33,546 nucleotides of DNA from a virus, in IMG/VR virus record IMGVR_UViG_3300012008_000023, positions 1 to 33,546 of that record; one strand, 5' to 3'. Below are positions 11,539-21,684 of the stretch, one piece after another. Within the stretch, counting starts at the first letter, position 1; every line of letters begins with the position of its first letter. Position numbers and translations under genes: made by a program. The notes under the pieces were generated by a model, which saw nothing but the letters and a program-made list of their open reading frames with translations, searched no databases and was not told the DNA's origin.

Positions 11539-11762
11539 CAGAAAGGGATCCCGTCGTGTTTGGCGACCTGGGCGGCCTGCGCGGCCCGTGCGACCGTGAT
11601 CCGGTCCGCGAGCTCGCCCGCCTCGGCAGGGTTCTGCACGAGCGGGCGGCAGCCGAGACAGGTGAAGAGACGAGGATCCAGATCGGCTATATAGGCTCCG
11701 ACGATCACGGTTTGGTCGCAGACCCGGCAGACGAGGAGACGTTCATGCTGCACGTCGATCAC
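11538..11762 (-). CDS. Small two-CxxC zinc-ribbon protein
   Basis: This 74-residue protein has two cysteine pairs (LVCRVCDQ and FTCLGCRP) 20-odd residues apart, typical of a rubredoxin-like zinc ribbon, followed by an Ala-rich helix. It overlaps the upstream gene (ATGA, 11759-11762) and the nuclease downstream. No family is recognised. Its translational coupling to the VRR-NUC gene suggests a shared process. Confidence 0.7.
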   Translation of the reverse strand: MIDVQHERLLVCRVCDQTVIVGAYIADLDPRLFTCLGCRPLVQNPAEAGELADRITVARAAQAAQVAKHDGIPF

Positions 11763-12640
11763 GCGGCGATCGCCTCCGATGCGAGTGCGGCACGGATGCG
11801 CTGGGCGCGTCCACGGTCGACCTGCGCCTGATCGTCGTGCGCGACGTGGGAGAGCCAGTGCTCGGGGATACCTGTGTTGGCGGCGAGGGCACGCCAGGTG
11901 CCGCCTGCGGAGTGGTAGTCGCGGAGCGACTGCGCGAGCGGTGCGGCCGCCTCGAGCCGTGCGGGATCATGGAGTGGCGAGCGGGCGCGCATCCTGGCGG
12001 TCATCTCGGCGCGCTGCCCGGCGCGCGCGGGGTCGTGGGAGAAGCAGAAGTCCGCGCCATGCTGCGCCGGACGCGTGCAGCGTGCACAGCGCGGCTGCCG
12101 CTCCTTGCCCTTCTGCGTCAGCCCGGCGGCGGCACGGACGGCCTTCCGCTGCTTCCAGTCGCGCGCCGAGAGGCCGTTCTTCGTCGACGCGGCGACGGTC
12201 ATCTCGATCCGGTCGTGCGTCTGCCAGCCGAACTTGCGGAAGTGATGCGAGATCGCGTTCCCACACGCCTGCGCGCTCTTGTAACCGAACCGCTGCCAGT
12301 AGCGACGGCCAAGCTCGTTGATCGGGACGCGCTGCTCCCAGTGCAGATGGTGGAGCGCGCGCAACTGCGGCTCGGTGATCTTGCACGGGAGACCGCGACG
12401 CTTCGCCCCCGGCTTCCGTGGCCTTTTGAGGAGTCCCTTCGGCGCCCGGGCCTGACACACCTGGCAGCAACGACGGGTGCGGGTGATCGTCCCGGCGACA
12501 TAGACCGGGCCCCTGAGGCCGCACAGCGTCCGACGGTCGAGCGACTCCTCACCCTCGCGAGGGAGATGCCAGAGCGCATCGACACCGGCGACGAGGACGA
12601 TCTCGGTGCCGTCCGGAACAGTGACCTGGACGCGGATCAT
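11759..12640 (-). CDS. Zinc- and HTH-containing DNA-binding-like protein
   Basis: This 293-residue protein starts MIRVQVTVPDGTEIVLVAG at an ATG that overlaps the upstream stop (ATGA); the longer open frame before it is a shadow. It has Cys pairs TLCGL...CCQVCQ, a helix-rich segment around INELGRRYWQRFGYKSAQAC like an HTH, a second zinc group CARCTRPAQHGADFCFSHD, and a C-terminal resolvase-like HTH (GTWRALAANTGIPEHWLSHV). The mixture suggests a nucleic-acid-binding protein, but I do not recognise the family. Confidence 0.7.
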   Translation of the reverse strand: MIRVQVTVPDGTEIVLVAGVDALWHLPREGEESLDRRTLCGLRGPVYVAGTITRTRRCCQVCQARAPKGLLKRPRKPGAKRRGLPCKITEPQLRALHHLHWEQRVPINELGRRYWQRFGYKSAQACGNAISHHFRKFGWQTHDRIEMTVAASTKNGLSARDWKQRKAVRAAAGLTQKGKERQPRCARCTRPAQHGADFCFSHDPARAGQRAEMTARMRARSPLHDPARLEAAAPLAQSLRDYHSAGGTWRALAANTGIPEHWLSHVAHDDQAQVDRGRAQRIRAALASEAIAA

Positions 12641-12879
12641 GCGGCCCTCCGCTCCTGCAGCACAGCAAGCGTCCGGTGCGCCCGCAGCTCGACCGCGAAC
12701 GACGGTGTGAACAAGCCACCGCGGCGGCGTGCACACTCGACGGTCTTCAACGCCACATAGGCCGCGTGTTCTGCGGGCCGCTGCTCTTTCCGGCGCTGGT
12801 AGAGGTCGCGGTGTTTGCAGGCGTCGCAGCCGGGGCGTCGGCCGTCGGCGGGGATGAAACAGGACGCGCAGAACTTCAC
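12637..12879 (-). CDS. Small zinc-finger protein
   Basis: This 80-residue protein starts at GTG (MKFCASCFIPADGRRPGCDACKHRD) overlapping the previous stop (GTGA), and ends by ATGA with the next gene. FCASC and GCDACKH form an obvious four-cysteine zinc site like those of recombination endonuclease VII-type or HNH N-termini, but no nuclease core follows. The rest is a basic helix. The upstream extension of the frame was rejected because the overlap and the MKFC start fit better. Confidence 0.65.
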   Translation of the reverse strand: MKFCASCFIPADGRRPGCDACKHRDLYQRRKEQRPAEHAAYVALKTVECARRRGGLFTPSFAVELRAHRTLAVLQERRAA

Positions 12880-13049
12880 GCGCGCGCCATGCCTTCGACG
12901 AACTGCTCCTTCGAGAGCCAAGCGGTCGTCGCTTCACGGCACGCGGCGCGGTCGGCGCAGACCTTCCGGCCCTTCTGCAACTCGGCAGGCTGCACTCGGC
13001 GCTTGCACGTCGCACAGACCACCTTCCCGTCAGGCTTCACGGACTTCAC
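12876..13049 (-). CDS. Tiny zinc-binding protein
   Basis: This 57-residue ORF starts with a GTG at 13049, five bases after the lysozyme-like gene, with GAGG about 8 bases upstream, and ends in a GTGA overlap with the next gene. It encodes MKSVKPDGKVVCATCKRRV..., with CATC plus two further cysteines (KVCADRAAC), one probable zinc site. It ends EQFVEGMARA. Its coupling to the next CxxC gene makes coding likely. Confidence 0.6.
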   Translation of the reverse strand: MKSVKPDGKVVCATCKRRVQPAELQKGRKVCADRAACREATTAWLSKEQFVEGMARA

Positions 13050-17070: not shown

Positions 17071-17145
17071 TTAGGCGACGAGGCCAACACCGACCGCGAG
17101 CCCTACTGCGGCGACGACGGCTGCGACAACCAGTGTGGGCGGCAT
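17071..17145 (-). CDS. 24-residue hydrophobic peptide
   Basis: An ATG overlapping the stop of the repeat protein (TAATG) opens MPPTLVVAAVVAAVGLAVGV..., one transmembrane helix ending in TAA. Translational coupling is the only strong support. Very short membrane peptides are common in phage early regions. It could be a chance frame. Confidence 0.35.
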   Translation of the reverse strand: MPPTLVVAAVVAAVGLAVGVGLVA

Positions 17146-18371
17146 TACGTCTCCACCGCCGGCGCGTACTCCTCAGCGCTCATCCCGAAACTCCACGCAA
17201 CCGCTGCCGCACACGACGAGGTGTCGGGCGGCACCCTAAGCGTGTAGCTCTTGAAGTGGCCGTCAGGCTCGGCCGTCGAGTTCACGACCCTGACCATCAC
17301 GAGAGGCTCGTCGTCAGCAAGGTCGAGGCGCCACAGCTCCCTGGGCTGCCCGAACTGATCGACGTCCGCGTCGACCAGCGTCGCGTCTGCCTGCTCGAGC
17401 AGCTTGTCGAACCCGAATCTGTCCATCATCACGCGGCGAACCTCGGCGTTCTCCTCGGCCAGGATCTGCTCGACCGTGAGCGTCTCGGGCGCCTCGACGA
17501 CCTGCCGGGTCACGCGGACGCCGTGCACGCTGTAGACGCCCCAACCGTCGGGCCACACGACCGCAGGCCCGTCGTCGCTGTGCAGCCGGTGAGAGCCCCA
17601 GCCGCGCTCGACGTCGGGGTTCGCGAGCTCGCGATGGATCGCCGTCGGCCGCTCGCAGACCATCACGAAGCGACGGTGCGGCCACCACCAGCACGCGGAC
17701 TCCATCGTGCCCTCGTAGGCGCGCGCGCGATCCCACAGGTCACCCTGGAGCTCGAGCTCGCAGACCTCGCGGAAGAACGACGACCACGCGCCGCCCCAGT
17801 ACCAACCGCCGGCCCACAGCTGCCCACCCATGATCTGCGGCCAGCCGCGGCGGATGACGTCGTAGGTGGCCTTCCGAATCTCCGCGCCGCGAACCGCGCC
17901 GCGAACCGCGTCGTCAACCGCGCCGCGAACCGCGTCGTCAACCGCGTCGCCAACCGCGCCGCGAACCGCGTCGCCAACCGCGTCGCCAACCGCGTCGTCA
18001 ACCGCGTCGCCAACCGCGCCGCGAACCGCGTCGCGAACCGCGTCGTCAACCGCGCCGCCAACCGCGCCGTCAACCGCGTCGCGAACCGCGCCGCGGGACA
18101 CTTTCAGTGTCCCGCGGCGCTCTGCCTCGATCAGCTCGATGGCGAGCGCCGCAGCAGGTGCAGCGAACGCCAGCACGAGCGGTGAGGGGACCCAGACGAC
18201 GACGTCGGGGAAGTCGATGCCGGCGAAGCGGTAGCACTCCCGCACGGAGGCCTCGAAGCGATCGCGGTCGGCCGGCCCCGTCTTGAGGCCGACGTCGATC
18301 CACTTGTCGGCCCACTCGTTGAAGCGGGACCGTTCGACGTCGGACAGCTGGTCGATGCGCGTGACGCCCAT
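17145..18371 (-). CDS. DUF6745-like protein with 18 tetrapeptide repeats
   Basis: This 408-residue protein has the three-part plan of a widespread family of unknown function, which I believe is DUF6745. The N-terminus is RIDQLSDVERSRFNEWADKW with GPADRDRFEASVRECYRFAG. The centre is low complexity (residues 93-164), 18 units of [RDG][DG]AV where relatives often show SVRD-type repeats. The conserved C-terminus has WWWPHRRFVMVCERP, DGPAVVWPDGWGVYSVHGVRV, AEVRRVMMDRFG and EPDGHFKSYTLRVPP. The conserved Trp, His and Asp residues could be catalytic, but no activity is known. It follows a companion gene with the stop only 2 bases before its ATG. It is an accessory module within the phage early operon. 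Confidence 0.82.
   Translation of the reverse strand: MGVTRIDQLSDVERSRFNEWADKWIDVGLKTGPADRDRFEASVRECYRFAGIDFPDVVVWVPSPLVLAFAAPAAALAIELIEAERRGTLKVSRGAVRDAVDGAVGGAVDDAVRDAVRGAVGDAVDDAVGDAVGDAVRGAVGDAVDDAVRGAVDDAVRGAVRGAEIRKATYDVIRRGWPQIMGGQLWAGGWYWGGAWSSFFREVCELELQGDLWDRARAYEGTMESACWWWPHRRFVMVCERPTAIHRELANPDVERGWGSHRLHSDDGPAVVWPDGWGVYSVHGVRVTRQVVEAPETLTVEQILAEENAEVRRVMMDRFGFDKLLEQADATLVDADVDQFGQPRELWRLDLADDEPLVMVRVVNSTAEPDGHFKSYTLRVPPDTSSCAAAVAWSFGMSAEEYAPAVET
17880..18095 (-). repeat. 12-bp coding minisatellite, 18 units
   Basis: The tract is a run of 12-base units of the form AACCGCG-CC/TC-G/A (plus strand), each coding xxAV. Units vary mostly in the first two codons (RG, RD, GD, DD). The tract is in frame throughout, so length changes by slippage would preserve the protein. 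It abuts the perfect hairpin at 18088-18120. Confidence 0.92.
18088..18120. repeat. Perfect 15-bp hairpin at the edge of the minisatellite
   Basis: GCGCCGCGGGACACT (18088-18102) pairs exactly with AGTGTCCCGCGGCGC (18106-18120) across a 3-base TTC loop. It lies inside the coding sequence, encoding residues around ERRGTLKVSRG. So stable a stem within a gene is unusual. It could be a REP-like element, a translation or replication pause site, or a relic of the event that seeded the repeats. Confidence 0.88.
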
Positions 18372-18373
18372 CG

Positions 18374-18700
18374 TTAGTCGGCGACGTTGCGGATTGCTTC
18401 GGGGCTGTATTCGCGCTGCCGGCGGACTTCGTACACGCCTGGGGCGACGTCGATCGTGGCGTGCTCCTGGTGGGTCAGCGGCGCCGAAACGCCGTGCACC
18501 ATCAGGTAGAGCTGCTCGGCGCCTTCCTTCGTGACGAGCTCGACGTTTCGGACGTCGACGGCGAAGGCGTGGTGGTGGCCGGTGACTTCGCCGTGGGCGA
18601 GGATCAGCTTGCCGTGCTCGCGACGGACGGCCTCCGCGTTCGTCGGGATCTTGCCGATCGGGATCAGGAGGATGTCGCCCTGTCTGTAGTGGTCGTTCAT
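18374..18700 (-). CDS. Companion of the repeat protein (RQGD...GEVTGHHHA family)
   Basis: This 108-residue beta-rich protein starts MNDHYRQGDILLIPIGKIP with GAAGGAGCACACC upstream, the strongest ribosome site in this region. Key parts are LAHGEVTGHHHAF, with three consecutive His that look metal-binding, LTHQEHATIDVAPGVYEV and RQREYSPEAIRNVAD. From memory, proteins of this pattern are regularly encoded next to DUF6745 proteins in bacteria, so the pair is probably a functional unit. The cupin-like pattern of strands and His is suggestive only; the activity is unknown. Confidence 0.78.
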   Translation of the reverse strand: MNDHYRQGDILLIPIGKIPTNAEAVRREHGKLILAHGEVTGHHHAFAVDVRNVELVTKEGAEQLYLMVHGVSAPLTHQEHATIDVAPGVYEVRRQREYSPEAIRNVAD

Positions 18701-18792
18701 GGTGTGCTCCTTCGGTTGGTAATAGGGGGTGTGCTGTTGCTCACTGGCCGACCCCGGCGGGTGTCGGGTTCATCCGCAGGAACCGGGATCAC
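18697..18792 (-). CDS. Possible 31-residue linker ORF
   Basis: A GTG overlapping the upstream stop (GTGA) opens 31 codons (MIPVPADEPDTRRGRPV...) ending in an ATGA overlap with the companion gene. The peptide is Pro/Arg-rich and featureless. It may be only a coupling leader or a chance frame. Confidence 0.25.
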   Translation of the reverse strand: MIPVPADEPDTRRGRPVSNSTPPITNRRSTP

Positions 18793-18944
18793 GCGACCAT
18801 CTCCTTCTTGAAGTCCGGGCCGCTGATGTCCGAGCCGCGCCGTTCTTCCTCGTCCTCTTTCTGGTCGACGTAGTACGGATTCAGGTCGAGCGGCCAACGC
18901 TGACGGCACCGTGCACAGACGAAGTTAAAGTCGCACGCACACAT
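18789..18944 (-). CDS. Small zinc-finger protein
   Basis: This 51-residue protein starts MCACDFNFVCARCRQRWPLDL at an ATG that overlaps the previous stop (TGATG). Cysteines CAC and CARC would bind one zinc. The acidic C-terminal half (QKEDEEERRGSDIS) has no motif. A longer frame exists upstream, but the overlap start is preferred. Confidence 0.62.
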   Translation of the reverse strand: MCACDFNFVCARCRQRWPLDLNPYYVDQKEDEEERRGSDISGPDFKKEMVA

Positions 18945-19981
18945 CAGAAAGGAATGTCCTGCGAGCATTCGATTCTGTGTTTCCCATCCGGCTCGCCGCA
19001 CTCCCCGCAAAGCTCAGGAGGCGCAACGTAGGCTTCGACGGCGCCACACAACTCGTCGTACTTCGCGACCGGGATCTCCTTCGACGACGAAACCTCGGCG
19101 ATCGTCAGCACCATCGCTTTGAGTACGTCGTCGGGGCAGTTCACGCGGTGCTGGATCGCGCGCAGCCTTTTTCGTTGCGAGTCCGAGATCAGAGCGGGGG
19201 AAGCAGGCTCGCGGCGGGCCTCCTCAGAGGAGGCAGGAGCCGCTTCATGCGAGACGGACTGGTCAGTGGCCGCCTGTGGTTCCCTCGCCGAGCTTGAGAC
19301 GTCGTCGGGTTCAACGTCTTGCGTGAACAAGGCGGACGCGCCTGTGACGGCGAGTACCGCGCCAACCCGGGCGCGCTTCTCCGACATCTTCAGCACCGTG
19401 TTCCAAAGATCCGGCAGGTCGGGGTTCGGCACCTTCCCGGTTGTCTGTTTCTCGATCTGGTCGTCGCCGTCCGAAAACTTTGCGCCGCATCCGTCCTGCT
19501 TCTTGAAGCACAGCCAGCCGCCGCCGTACTCCTGCTTGCCCTTGATGATCGCCGCCGCCCCGCACTGAGGGCAGATGCGTTTCGCGACGCGCCACGCATA
19601 CTTCGCTTCACGCGTCGAGCACATCCCCTCACCGAACCCCAACCTCGACCCGGTCGGCGCATGGAAAACAGTTGCGCGCGAGTTGACCGTCAGATGGTCG
19701 CCATCCCACGCCTTCTCATTCGTGATCTGCACATCCAGCTGGAACAGCACGGACAGTTTCTCGGCGCCGGGCTTCAACAGGGCGGGCTTGTTCGTGCCTG
19801 GGATGACGCCGTAGTCGACGTCCTTCTTCATCGCGGTGTTCATCGCATCCCGGATCACGTCCAACCGCTTCACGAGCTCGCCGGCCTGAACCTGCGGCGT
19901 CACAGTCAGCGGGGCGCTGTGCCGCTCCGCGATATCGGTTGTGTGCTCGCCTACGACCTCACCTTCGAGCACTTCGCTCAT
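18944..19981 (-). CDS. RecT-neighbour phage protein with a zinc ribbon, role unknown
   Basis: This 345-residue protein (ATG at 19981, with a GTG one codon earlier as alternative) begins with an acidic stretch, then AMNTAMKKDVDYGVIPGTNKPALLKPGAEKL, a hallmark of a phage family found near recombination genes. A zinc ribbon follows (CPQCGAAAIIKG...GWLCFKKQDGCGAKF), then LWNTVLKMSEKRARVGAVLAVTGAS. A low-complexity acidic linker leads to a C-terminal helical domain and final cysteines (ELCGECGEPDGKHRIEC). The position downstream of RecT suggests a role in strand annealing or replication-coupled recombination. I could not place it in a named enzyme family. Confidence 0.72.
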   Translation of the reverse strand: MSEVLEGEVVGEHTTDIAERHSAPLTVTPQVQAGELVKRLDVIRDAMNTAMKKDVDYGVIPGTNKPALLKPGAEKLSVLFQLDVQITNEKAWDGDHLTVNSRATVFHAPTGSRLGFGEGMCSTREAKYAWRVAKRICPQCGAAAIIKGKQEYGGGWLCFKKQDGCGAKFSDGDDQIEKQTTGKVPNPDLPDLWNTVLKMSEKRARVGAVLAVTGASALFTQDVEPDDVSSSAREPQAATDQSVSHEAAPASSEEARREPASPALISDSQRKRLRAIQHRVNCPDDVLKAMVLTIAEVSSSKEIPVAKYDELCGAVEAYVAPPELCGECGEPDGKHRIECSQDIPF

Positions 19982-20193
19982 CACTTCAGCCGCCGATCGG
20001 CCAGTGTCTGTTCACGGGCAGCGTGCGCCCGATCGGCACCGCCGGTCACCTGACGGGCAACCCTGCGATCGCACTCACTGAACGAGCGGCAGTAATAGGA
20101 GCGGCTGTGTCCCGAGAAGATCAGGTCTTCGCGGCGCTGATTCTTTCCGCAGCGGTTGCAGGCGTGACGGGTCGCCGACTTGACGGCGCTCAT
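19981..20193 (-). CDS. Small zinc-binding protein
   Basis: This 70-residue protein starts MSAVKSATRHACNRCGKNQRR and has CNRC with YYCRSFSEC, a compact zinc-ribbon-like core, then a basic tail. ATGA overlaps the upstream gene, and TGATG or GTGA overlaps the downstream one. The pattern recalls small phage single-strand-binding or NinF-like zinc proteins, without certainty. Confidence 0.65.
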   Translation of the reverse strand: MSAVKSATRHACNRCGKNQRREDLIFSGHSRSYYCRSFSECDRRVARQVTGGADRAHAAREQTLADRRLK

Positions 20194-20408
20194 GCGCACA
20201 CGCTGCGCTCGAGCGCGTCGACGTCGACGTCGACCAGCATCCGATCGGACATCGCGCTCATCGCATCGACCGCCGTCTCGAGCGCGTCGAGGACGAGCGG
20301 CAACTGATCCTCCGGTGCCGCGAACAGTGCGAGCCCGACCTTGTCGCGCGTCTCGCGCGTCAGCCTGAGCATCTCCGCGCTGAGCGTGGCCTTCTCGAGA
20401 ACGTTCAT
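20190..20408 (-). CDS. Small helical hypothetical protein
   Basis: This 72-residue acidic all-helical protein (MNVLEKATLSAEMLRLTRETRDKV...) is coupled by ATGA overlaps to RecT upstream and the zinc protein downstream. No motif is recognised. Its place within the recombination cluster is the only hint of function. Confidence 0.62.
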   Translation of the reverse strand: MNVLEKATLSAEMLRLTRETRDKVGLALFAAPEDQLPLVLDALETAVDAMSAMSDRMLVDVDVDALERSVCA

Positions 20409-21454
20409 GCCGACGCCTCCGTAGCGCCCGGAGGAGCCACGAACGCGCTCGGCGGCTCACCGATGGCGGCGAGAATCTCGTCCACGGAAGCGGCCGGGAT
20501 CTTCTCCGACGTGACCTGTCCCGTCAGTGCATCGAAGATCGCCCGCAGCGCGACCTCGTCAACGCTGCACGCCTTCGCGCGCTGGAAGATCGCGACGCGC
20601 TGCTCATGGCTCGCGTACTCGACCTCAGGCTCAGGCTCCGGCTCGGGGCCAGGAGTCGACGGCGCAGCCTCAGGGGGAGTGGCCGCGCCGTCGACCTGCT
20701 GGCTCTCCGTGCTCGCCGGAGGGAGTGCCGGCGTCTCGGCACGCTCGGTGCCGTAGAAGGTTGCGGCCGCTTCGCCGGGCTCGTCCGGGATCTCGAGGAG
20801 CGTGATGATGCGCCGGTCGGACTCGGCGAGGCCGAGCTTCGCGAAGAGCCGCCTGACCGGGCTCTTCTCGGTCATGCGGTCCTCGAAGTCGAACCACGGC
20901 CCCTTCGTCGCGCGGGAGATTGCGCGGACGCGGGCGATCTGCGCGGGGTCCATCACTTCGATCTCGGGCGGCCTGCCGTCCCTGTGGACTGCCTTCGCCC
21001 ATGCGCCGATGATCTCGCCGCGGTTGACACCGGGCCGTGGCGGGCGATGCTTGAGCGTCGCCTCGACGGGGTCGTAGTCGAACTCGTCGTTCTCGTAGAT
21101 GACGGCCGAGCGGATCTGCCAGCCGTACTCGGCCGCGATCTGCCGGAAGCCGTACGCCATCGGGATCAGCTGCACGACGCCCTTGAACGGGACGAGCGCC
21201 GCCTCCTTGCCGTCCGGCAGGAGGCCGATCTGCGCGCACTGGATCAGCGAGCGGATGACCGTCTCGCGGAGCGCGGGCGCGGCAAGGTCAGGGTTCGCCA
21301 TCAGCGCGGTGACGGCGACCCGGTTGAACTTCGCCGCCGACACGTTCTCGGGGAGCGCGAGCTTGATCTGCTCCATGAAGTCGGCGCCGCGGACGATCGA
21401 GACAAGCTCCTGCGCCGGGGTGCGCTGTGCGATCTCGGTGCTCTGAGTGCTCAT
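20405..21454 (-). CDS. recT: RecT-family single-strand annealing protein
   Basis: This 349-residue protein starts MSTQSTEIAQRTPAQELVSIV at an ATG overlapping the upstream stop; the longer frame is a shadow. The RecT core is clear: FNRVAVTALMANPDL, CAQIGLLPDGKEAALVPFKG, VVQLIPMAYGFRQIAAEYG, KHRPPRPGVN and GPWFDFEDRMTEKSPVRRLF. A Pro/Glu-rich linker (PEPEPEPEVE) leads to a C-terminal helical extension. It anneals complementary strands during phage recombination. No RecE or YqaJ-type exonuclease partner is visible in the window. Confidence 0.93.
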   Translation of the reverse strand: MSTQSTEIAQRTPAQELVSIVRGADFMEQIKLALPENVSAAKFNRVAVTALMANPDLAAPALRETVIRSLIQCAQIGLLPDGKEAALVPFKGVVQLIPMAYGFRQIAAEYGWQIRSAVIYENDEFDYDPVEATLKHRPPRPGVNRGEIIGAWAKAVHRDGRPPEIEVMDPAQIARVRAISRATKGPWFDFEDRMTEKSPVRRLFAKLGLAESDRRIITLLEIPDEPGEAAATFYGTERAETPALPPASTESQQVDGAATPPEAAPSTPGPEPEPEPEVEYASHEQRVAIFQRAKACSVDEVALRAIFDALTGQVTSEKIPAASVDEILAAIGEPPSAFVAPPGATEASA

Positions 21455-21684
21455 GCCGACACCGCCTGCGGTGCGTCGCTCCACGTGCCTGGCCAGCGCG
21501 CGTCGAGCCGCTCGTTCAGTGCTGCCCACCAGGGTTCAGGATGCGCTCCGTGCACGGGACAGTCCTCGTCGGGGCGCCAGAAGTCTCCGTCGCTCTCGCA
21601 GCCTTCACAGTCGTTCTCGACGTGCGATGTGATGTAGGCGTCGCGATTGGCTTCGTCGTTCGGCGTGAAGGTGCGATAGGCCAT
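21451..21684 (-). CDS. Small Cys-containing hypothetical protein
   Basis: This 77-residue protein starts MAYRTFTPNDEANRDAYITSH, with a possible zinc cluster (CEGCESDG...DEDCPVHGAH) and an amphipathic C-terminal helix (WWAALNERLDARWP). The ATG overlaps the upstream stop (TGATG) and the stop overlaps the recT start (ATGA). The family is not recognised. Confidence 0.65.
   Translation of the reverse strand: MAYRTFTPNDEANRDAYITSHVENDCEGCESDGDFWRPDEDCPVHGAHPEPWWAALNERLDARWPGTWSDAPQAVSA

Follow-up and report, generated by a model that had tools for sequence, protein, structure and literature searches.

An RQGD-DUF6745 gene pair of phages and bacteria with an exchangeable, rapidly changing arm

We describe a pair of adjacent genes, one encoding a small protein that we call RQGD/HHH (RQGD below) and the other a member of the DUF6745 family, and we regard it as secure that the pair is a working unit. 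The pair was analysed in a 33,546-nucleotide stretch of viral DNA (the window), which comprises positions 1 to 33,546 of IMG/VR record IMGVR_UViG_3300012008_000023 and covers most of that 36,096-base virus. On the minus strand of the window, RQGD comes first (18374-18700, 108 aa, defined by an ORF call and by phrog_27831) and is followed after 2 nt by the DUF6745 gene (17145-18371, 408 aa, defined by an ORF call and by Pfam PF20530). The Shine-Dalgarno sequence AAGGAG was read at 18707-18712 on the same strand, 6 nt ahead of the RQGD ATG. The DUF6745 gene has no good ribosome site of its own, which together with the 2-nt gap fits translational coupling. A sequence-only reading of this DNA had described two adjacent ORFs led by one strong ribosome site, and the exact coordinates bear out both points.

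The main genes of the window, namely those for terminase, portal, protease, capsid, integrase, replication initiator and RecT, all lie on the minus strand, and the phage is called temperate because an integrase gene is present. Searching the window for Rfam families and tRNAs gave no matches, and neither did a promoter and terminator scan. Also on the minus strand are a phage glycosyltransferase gene adjoining the structural genes (474-1706; phrog_2170, E=5e-41) and, between the integrase side and the replication initiator, a 418-aa ORF with no PHROG match (11759-13015).

The two families co-occur widely. With the RQGD protein alone as query, 84,980 bacterial and archaeal species genomes yielded 15 loci; DUF6745 lies within approximately 1 kb of RQGD in 14 of these, and the contig of the 15th ends there. 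In IMG/VR, DUF6745 adjoins RQGD in 54 of the 55 loci that have at least 1.5 kb of downstream sequence, the sole exception being a contig that starts 91 nt before RQGD. The gene order is reversed in more than a dozen IMG/VR loci. Named phages with the pair include Microcystis phage LMM01 (gp175/gp174), Mycobacterium prophage prophiGD102-1 (gp37/gp38) and phage MW202476, in which the RQGD gene is present but unannotated. The sequence-only reading had taken the pair to be widespread and undescribed; the counts agree with the former, and for the latter, we found no paper naming DUF6745 in the literature searched. Among 199 Planctomycetota genomes, five have DUF6745, four have RQGD and three have both, and a minority of DUF6745 genes have no adjacent RQGD (for example, loci L065, L085 and L093). 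At one locus (L061:4995-6973), the DUF6745 ORF continues in frame into the N-terminal segment of RQGD, and the remainder of RQGD follows after about 100 nt; this is a broken or rearranged pair.

Part of the pairing is concealed by sequence assembly. Another 25 IMG/VR contigs end less than 1.5 kb downstream of RQGD, and all 25 stop inside the tetrapeptide array of DUF6745 or where it begins (25 of the 80 RQGD contigs, L094-L173). These contigs lack DUF6745 because they end there: the 12-nt arrays break short-read assembly and conceal the second member of the pair. Other contigs (L059, L060 and L062-L064) begin inside the array.

The RQGD protein of the window matched no Pfam family. It matches phrog_27831, which has no assigned function and no Pfam model, over its whole length (E=5e-18), and it belongs to the RQGD family by a full-length profile match together with the GD, GHxH, HxEH and RQREY..P...R.V.D motifs. 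Across approximately 115 RQGD proteins, there is no variation at G8, D9, H44 or H77 and almost none at H80. In the RQGD alignment, H44 is kept in 114 of 114 sequences, H42 in 110 of 114, H77 in 116 of 116 and H80 in 115 of 116. The exact C-terminal residue is Asp in 120 of 121 unique sequences, the remaining one being a frame-broken copy, and it is constant although the preceding residue varies freely and the tail carries indels. The conserved Trp, His and Asp residues noticed from the letters alone are real, with G8, D9, H44, H77, H80 and the terminal Asp as the invariant or near-invariant positions of RQGD.

An AlphaFold2 model of RQGD is all-beta, with ten strands and a pLDDT of 88.7. Three near- or fully invariant histidines fall in an HxH/HxEH arrangement, and we predict from conservation and the model that H44, H77 and H80 likely form a three-histidine metal site, with the proposed ligands in the aligned motifs GEVTGHHH (aa 37-44; 18569-18592, minus strand) and HQEH (aa 77-80; 18461-18472, minus strand). 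Neither the Protein Data Bank (PDB) fold search nor Pfam returned a cupin. The C-terminal tail, QREYSPEAIRNVAD (aa 95-108; 18377-18418, minus strand), is near-invariant yet modelled with low confidence in the monomer, as expected for a segment that binds a partner. PDB fold searches with the RQGD and DUF6745 models found nothing better than E=0.4, and a PDB sequence search with RQGD gave no matches. Structural matches to the RQGD model in BFVD were an uncultured phage protein and a protein of Acidianus rod-shaped virus 2 (A0A0N9P6K3, second-best match, probability 1.00, TM 0.55); the latter suggests that RQGD may be part of a wider fold family. In one locus (L058:1445-1795), RQGD looks circularly permuted, with the N-terminal RQGDVLL strand directly before the C-terminal WEVIRQREYSPEAIRSVAD segment.

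The second protein of the window is a clear member of DUF6745, PF20530 matching aa 222-408 with E=1e-55 and 188.3 bits against a Pfam cut-off of 27. The family is defined by sequence, and we did not find its partner gene, exchangeable arms or array evolution described in the literature. DUF6745 proteins are modular, consisting of a constant core and an exchangeable N-terminal arm. In the window, the conserved core spans aa 195-408 (17148-17789, minus strand) and contains the motifs NAEVRRVMxxRxG and ..LRVPP..AVAWTF.., while the N-terminal domain (aa 1-90; 18102-18371, minus strand) is confidently folded and is the faster-evolving, exchangeable part; the AlphaFold2 model of the whole protein has a pLDDT of 79.5. 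Sequence matches in the PDB (eL29 and similar) involved only the low-complexity tract and were discarded. The last two residues of DUF6745 proteins are [EQR][TSA] in 97 of 106 cases. The core is under purifying selection (dN of approximately 0.27-0.31 versus dS of 0.8-1.4), and the phage copies are therefore not decayed; decay relative to bacterial copies was the outcome that the sequence-only reading had named as one that would speak against its proposal.

Several kinds of arm are joined to this core. In phages, the arm is a helical domain plus a tetrapeptide tract of 12-nt units. Leucine-rich-repeat (LRR) arms characterise a mainly bacterial clade of the DUF6745 tree (21 rows, support 100); the LRR matches to plant receptors and secreted effectors reflect generic LRR similarity. 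DUF6745 of Streptomyces has a compact form, and in Skermanella (L220:8340-9746) several apparent N-terminal membrane helices replace the repeats as the arm, with a Hen1 RNA-repair gene approximately 6 kb away. The phages L166 and L168 have cores that are 98% identical and N-terminal arms that are 44% identical, as expected of block exchange; their DNA is approximately 90% identical through RQGD, and their tract scaffolds differ ([RWG][AD]SV versus SAV[RYD]). When pairs whose cores are related are compared, the cores average 58% identity and the N-terminal domains 39%. On this architecture, the arm is probably the adaptable part of the module and the RQGD-DUF6745 core the acting part.

The impression of a repeat protein was right: the DUF6745 gene of the window contains an 18-copy tandem array of 12-nt units (17.8 copies; 17882-18094, minus strand) that encodes a tetrapeptide tract, [R/G/D][D/G]AV. 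The 17 full units have the form [CGC/GGC/GAC][GAC/GGC]GCG GTT, and their variation is confined to codon positions 1 and 2, with 17 nonsynonymous and 0 synonymous differences. In a tally restricted to in-frame tracts (43 tracts, 1179 units), unit differences were nonsynonymous in 1051 cases versus synonymous in 29, and 34 of the 43 tracts had no synonymous difference at all. The lack of synonymous variation could also be explained by the youth of the arrays; these loci contain three further genuine tandem arrays, and two of them (a pentapeptide array and a Gly-rich array) are likewise without synonymous differences. We tend not to favour diversification of the tract by a retroelement. No reverse transcriptase was found among the window ORFs scanned, and the variable sites are C, G or A at fixed positions.

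A similar array occurs in gp54 of mycobacteriophage Tweety, a counter-defence protein whose repeat-number mutants overcome the defences of the prophages Phrann or MichelleMyBell (PMC9262239, PMC8549241). Its substitution pattern was described in 2007 as 'consistent with selection for variation' (PMC2884959), and our tract script, applied to gp54, reproduces this description, with 24 nonsynonymous and 0 synonymous differences among 48 units. Like gp54, the window protein has a tetrapeptide array of 12-nt units that varies only at codon positions 1 and 2. In contrast, the regions flanking the gp54 array are not DUF6745, and no RQGD partner lies beside gp54. Homology of gp54 to DUF6745 was rejected, as an hmmsearch of gp54 and an hhalign of its N-terminal region found nothing. 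Because the N-terminal region of gp54 is not DUF6745 and its neighbours are not RQGD, the tract is the one element that ties the pair to counter-defence. From this parallel and the early location of the pair, we tentatively favour a role in phage counter-defence or conflict, with the arm as the tunable part, while judging its chances to be somewhat below even.

The carriage of the pair in an early region, suspected in the sequence-only reading, is evident in the window, where early recombination genes adjoin it: a gene for a RecT-like single-strand annealing protein lies upstream (20405-21529, minus strand), with a phrog_10048 protein of no assigned function between RecT and the pair (18944-19984, minus strand). 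Elsewhere, phage neighbours include the early DNA genes RecE/YqaJ, RecT, Mu Gam, Gp157, gp5.9, methylases and helicases. Early phage regions contain many non-conflict genes, which counts against counter-defence, and one could instead see in the pair an accessory of phage recombination or replication that works with RecT/RecE-type systems. The neighbouring RecE/YqaJ, RecT, Gam and helicase genes, counted without a background rate, would fit this role, as would the LMM01 copy, which sits in a replication gene block and has polymerase, exonuclease and uracil-DNA glycosylase genes next to it. However, the bacterial LRR-type pairs show no such link and no nucleic-acid-binding family or fold was recognised, and we consider a recombination role improbable.

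The exchangeable arms are open to a different interpretation, that the pair is an effector of defence or exclusion whose LRR or tetrapeptide arms serve bacteria and prophages as sensors against incoming phages, temperate phages carrying it as a moron. The sensor-like arms (LRR, tetrapeptide, membrane and compact) are interchangeable on one core, the distribution is patchy and accessory (5 of 199 genomes in Planctomycetota, 3 of 241 in Verrucomicrobiota), some copies are plasmid-borne, and the integrase marks the window phage as temperate. On the other hand, neither protein matched a PADLOC model at E<=0.001, no toxin-like enzymatic signature was recognised, and the pair also resides in the replication gene block of LMM01. 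A defence effector is a possibility to which we give roughly one chance in four. For conflict in general, at which the sequence-only reading had hinted, the outcome is mixed: the Tweety-like tract pattern and the exchange of the arm as a block speak for it, whereas the PADLOC result, the gp54 flanks and the bacterial copies, most of which are in an uncharacterised radical-SAM cluster and not in recognised defence islands, do not.

This cluster, STM4011-STM4015 (NCBIfam NF038073-NF038076 and NF006067), houses the pair at 13 bacterial loci (L008, L010, L012, L013, L015, L207, L214-L219 and L222) in Planctomycetota, Verrucomicrobiota, Deinococcota, Alphaproteobacteria and Actinomycetota. Its members are two radical SAM proteins, the sulfatase-like hydrolase STM4013, a protein that looks ATP-grasp-like from motif reading, and an LRR protein, and we found no paper explaining its function in the literature searched. 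A second bacterial context is a conserved VWA protein, 57-60% identical among three Hymenobacter loci and Deinococcus ficus; at these loci (L006, L007, L009 and L221), the VWA-domain protein comes after an LRR-type pair. Neither context has a defined anti-phage role, a further point against counter-defence. One could propose from the cluster that the pair belongs to a module for protein modification or small-metabolite synthesis, in which RQGD would be a carrier or substrate for the radical SAM proteins STM4011 and STM4012 and the ATP-grasp-like STM4014, and phage copies would exploit the same chemistry through host enzymes. The 13 loci represent two separate DUF6745 clades, and a terminal Asp in 120 of 121 RQGD sequences would suit such a substrate. 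Yet this Asp is conserved just as strictly in the absence of the enzymes; no STM4011-STM4015 gene was found in any of 80 phage loci (740 kb), nor any such product among the window ORFs scanned; most of the sampled Planctomycetota clusters are without the pair, three of four Planctomycetota genomes with STM4011 lacking DUF6745; and the ATP-grasp assignment of STM4014 comes from motif reading, searches of STM4014 and STM4013 against PDB sequences having given no matches. We therefore think a modification module unlikely.

Returning to counter-defence, we propose that the two genes are coupled in translation and make up a single early module of the phage, with products that work jointly and probably form a complex. 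RQGD would be a small beta protein with a predicted metal site at H44, H77 and H80, and its conserved tail, with a free C-terminal Asp, may dock on a partner, most simply the DUF6745 core; both metal binding and docking are suggested by conservation and structure prediction. The DUF6745 protein would join the core to an exchangeable arm, which in phages is the helical domain with its tetrapeptide tract, quickly changing in length and composition. The arm would aim the module at, or tune it against, a factor encoded by the host or by a prophage, as in counter-defence of the Tweety gp54 kind, and the RQGD-DUF6745 core would be the part that acts. More speculatively, and with odds that we put well below even, the pair might represent a new class of phage-bacterial conflict module with a metal-dependent core and a plug-in recognition arm. 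The tetrapeptide repeat, with two scaffold and two variable residues per 12 nt, would then be a rapidly rewritable code of specificity or length, and bacteria would use the same core with LRR arms in STM4011-STM4015 systems.

With these results, DUF6745, a Pfam family with no assigned function, gains an evolutionary signature as well as a partner gene and a domain architecture. It is linked to the sole phage protein with a similar array for which genetics has demonstrated tunability, and also to a radical-SAM cluster that is uncharacterised and occurs in at least five bacterial phyla. The prediction that follows for the family is that specificity would be set by the length and composition of the arm.
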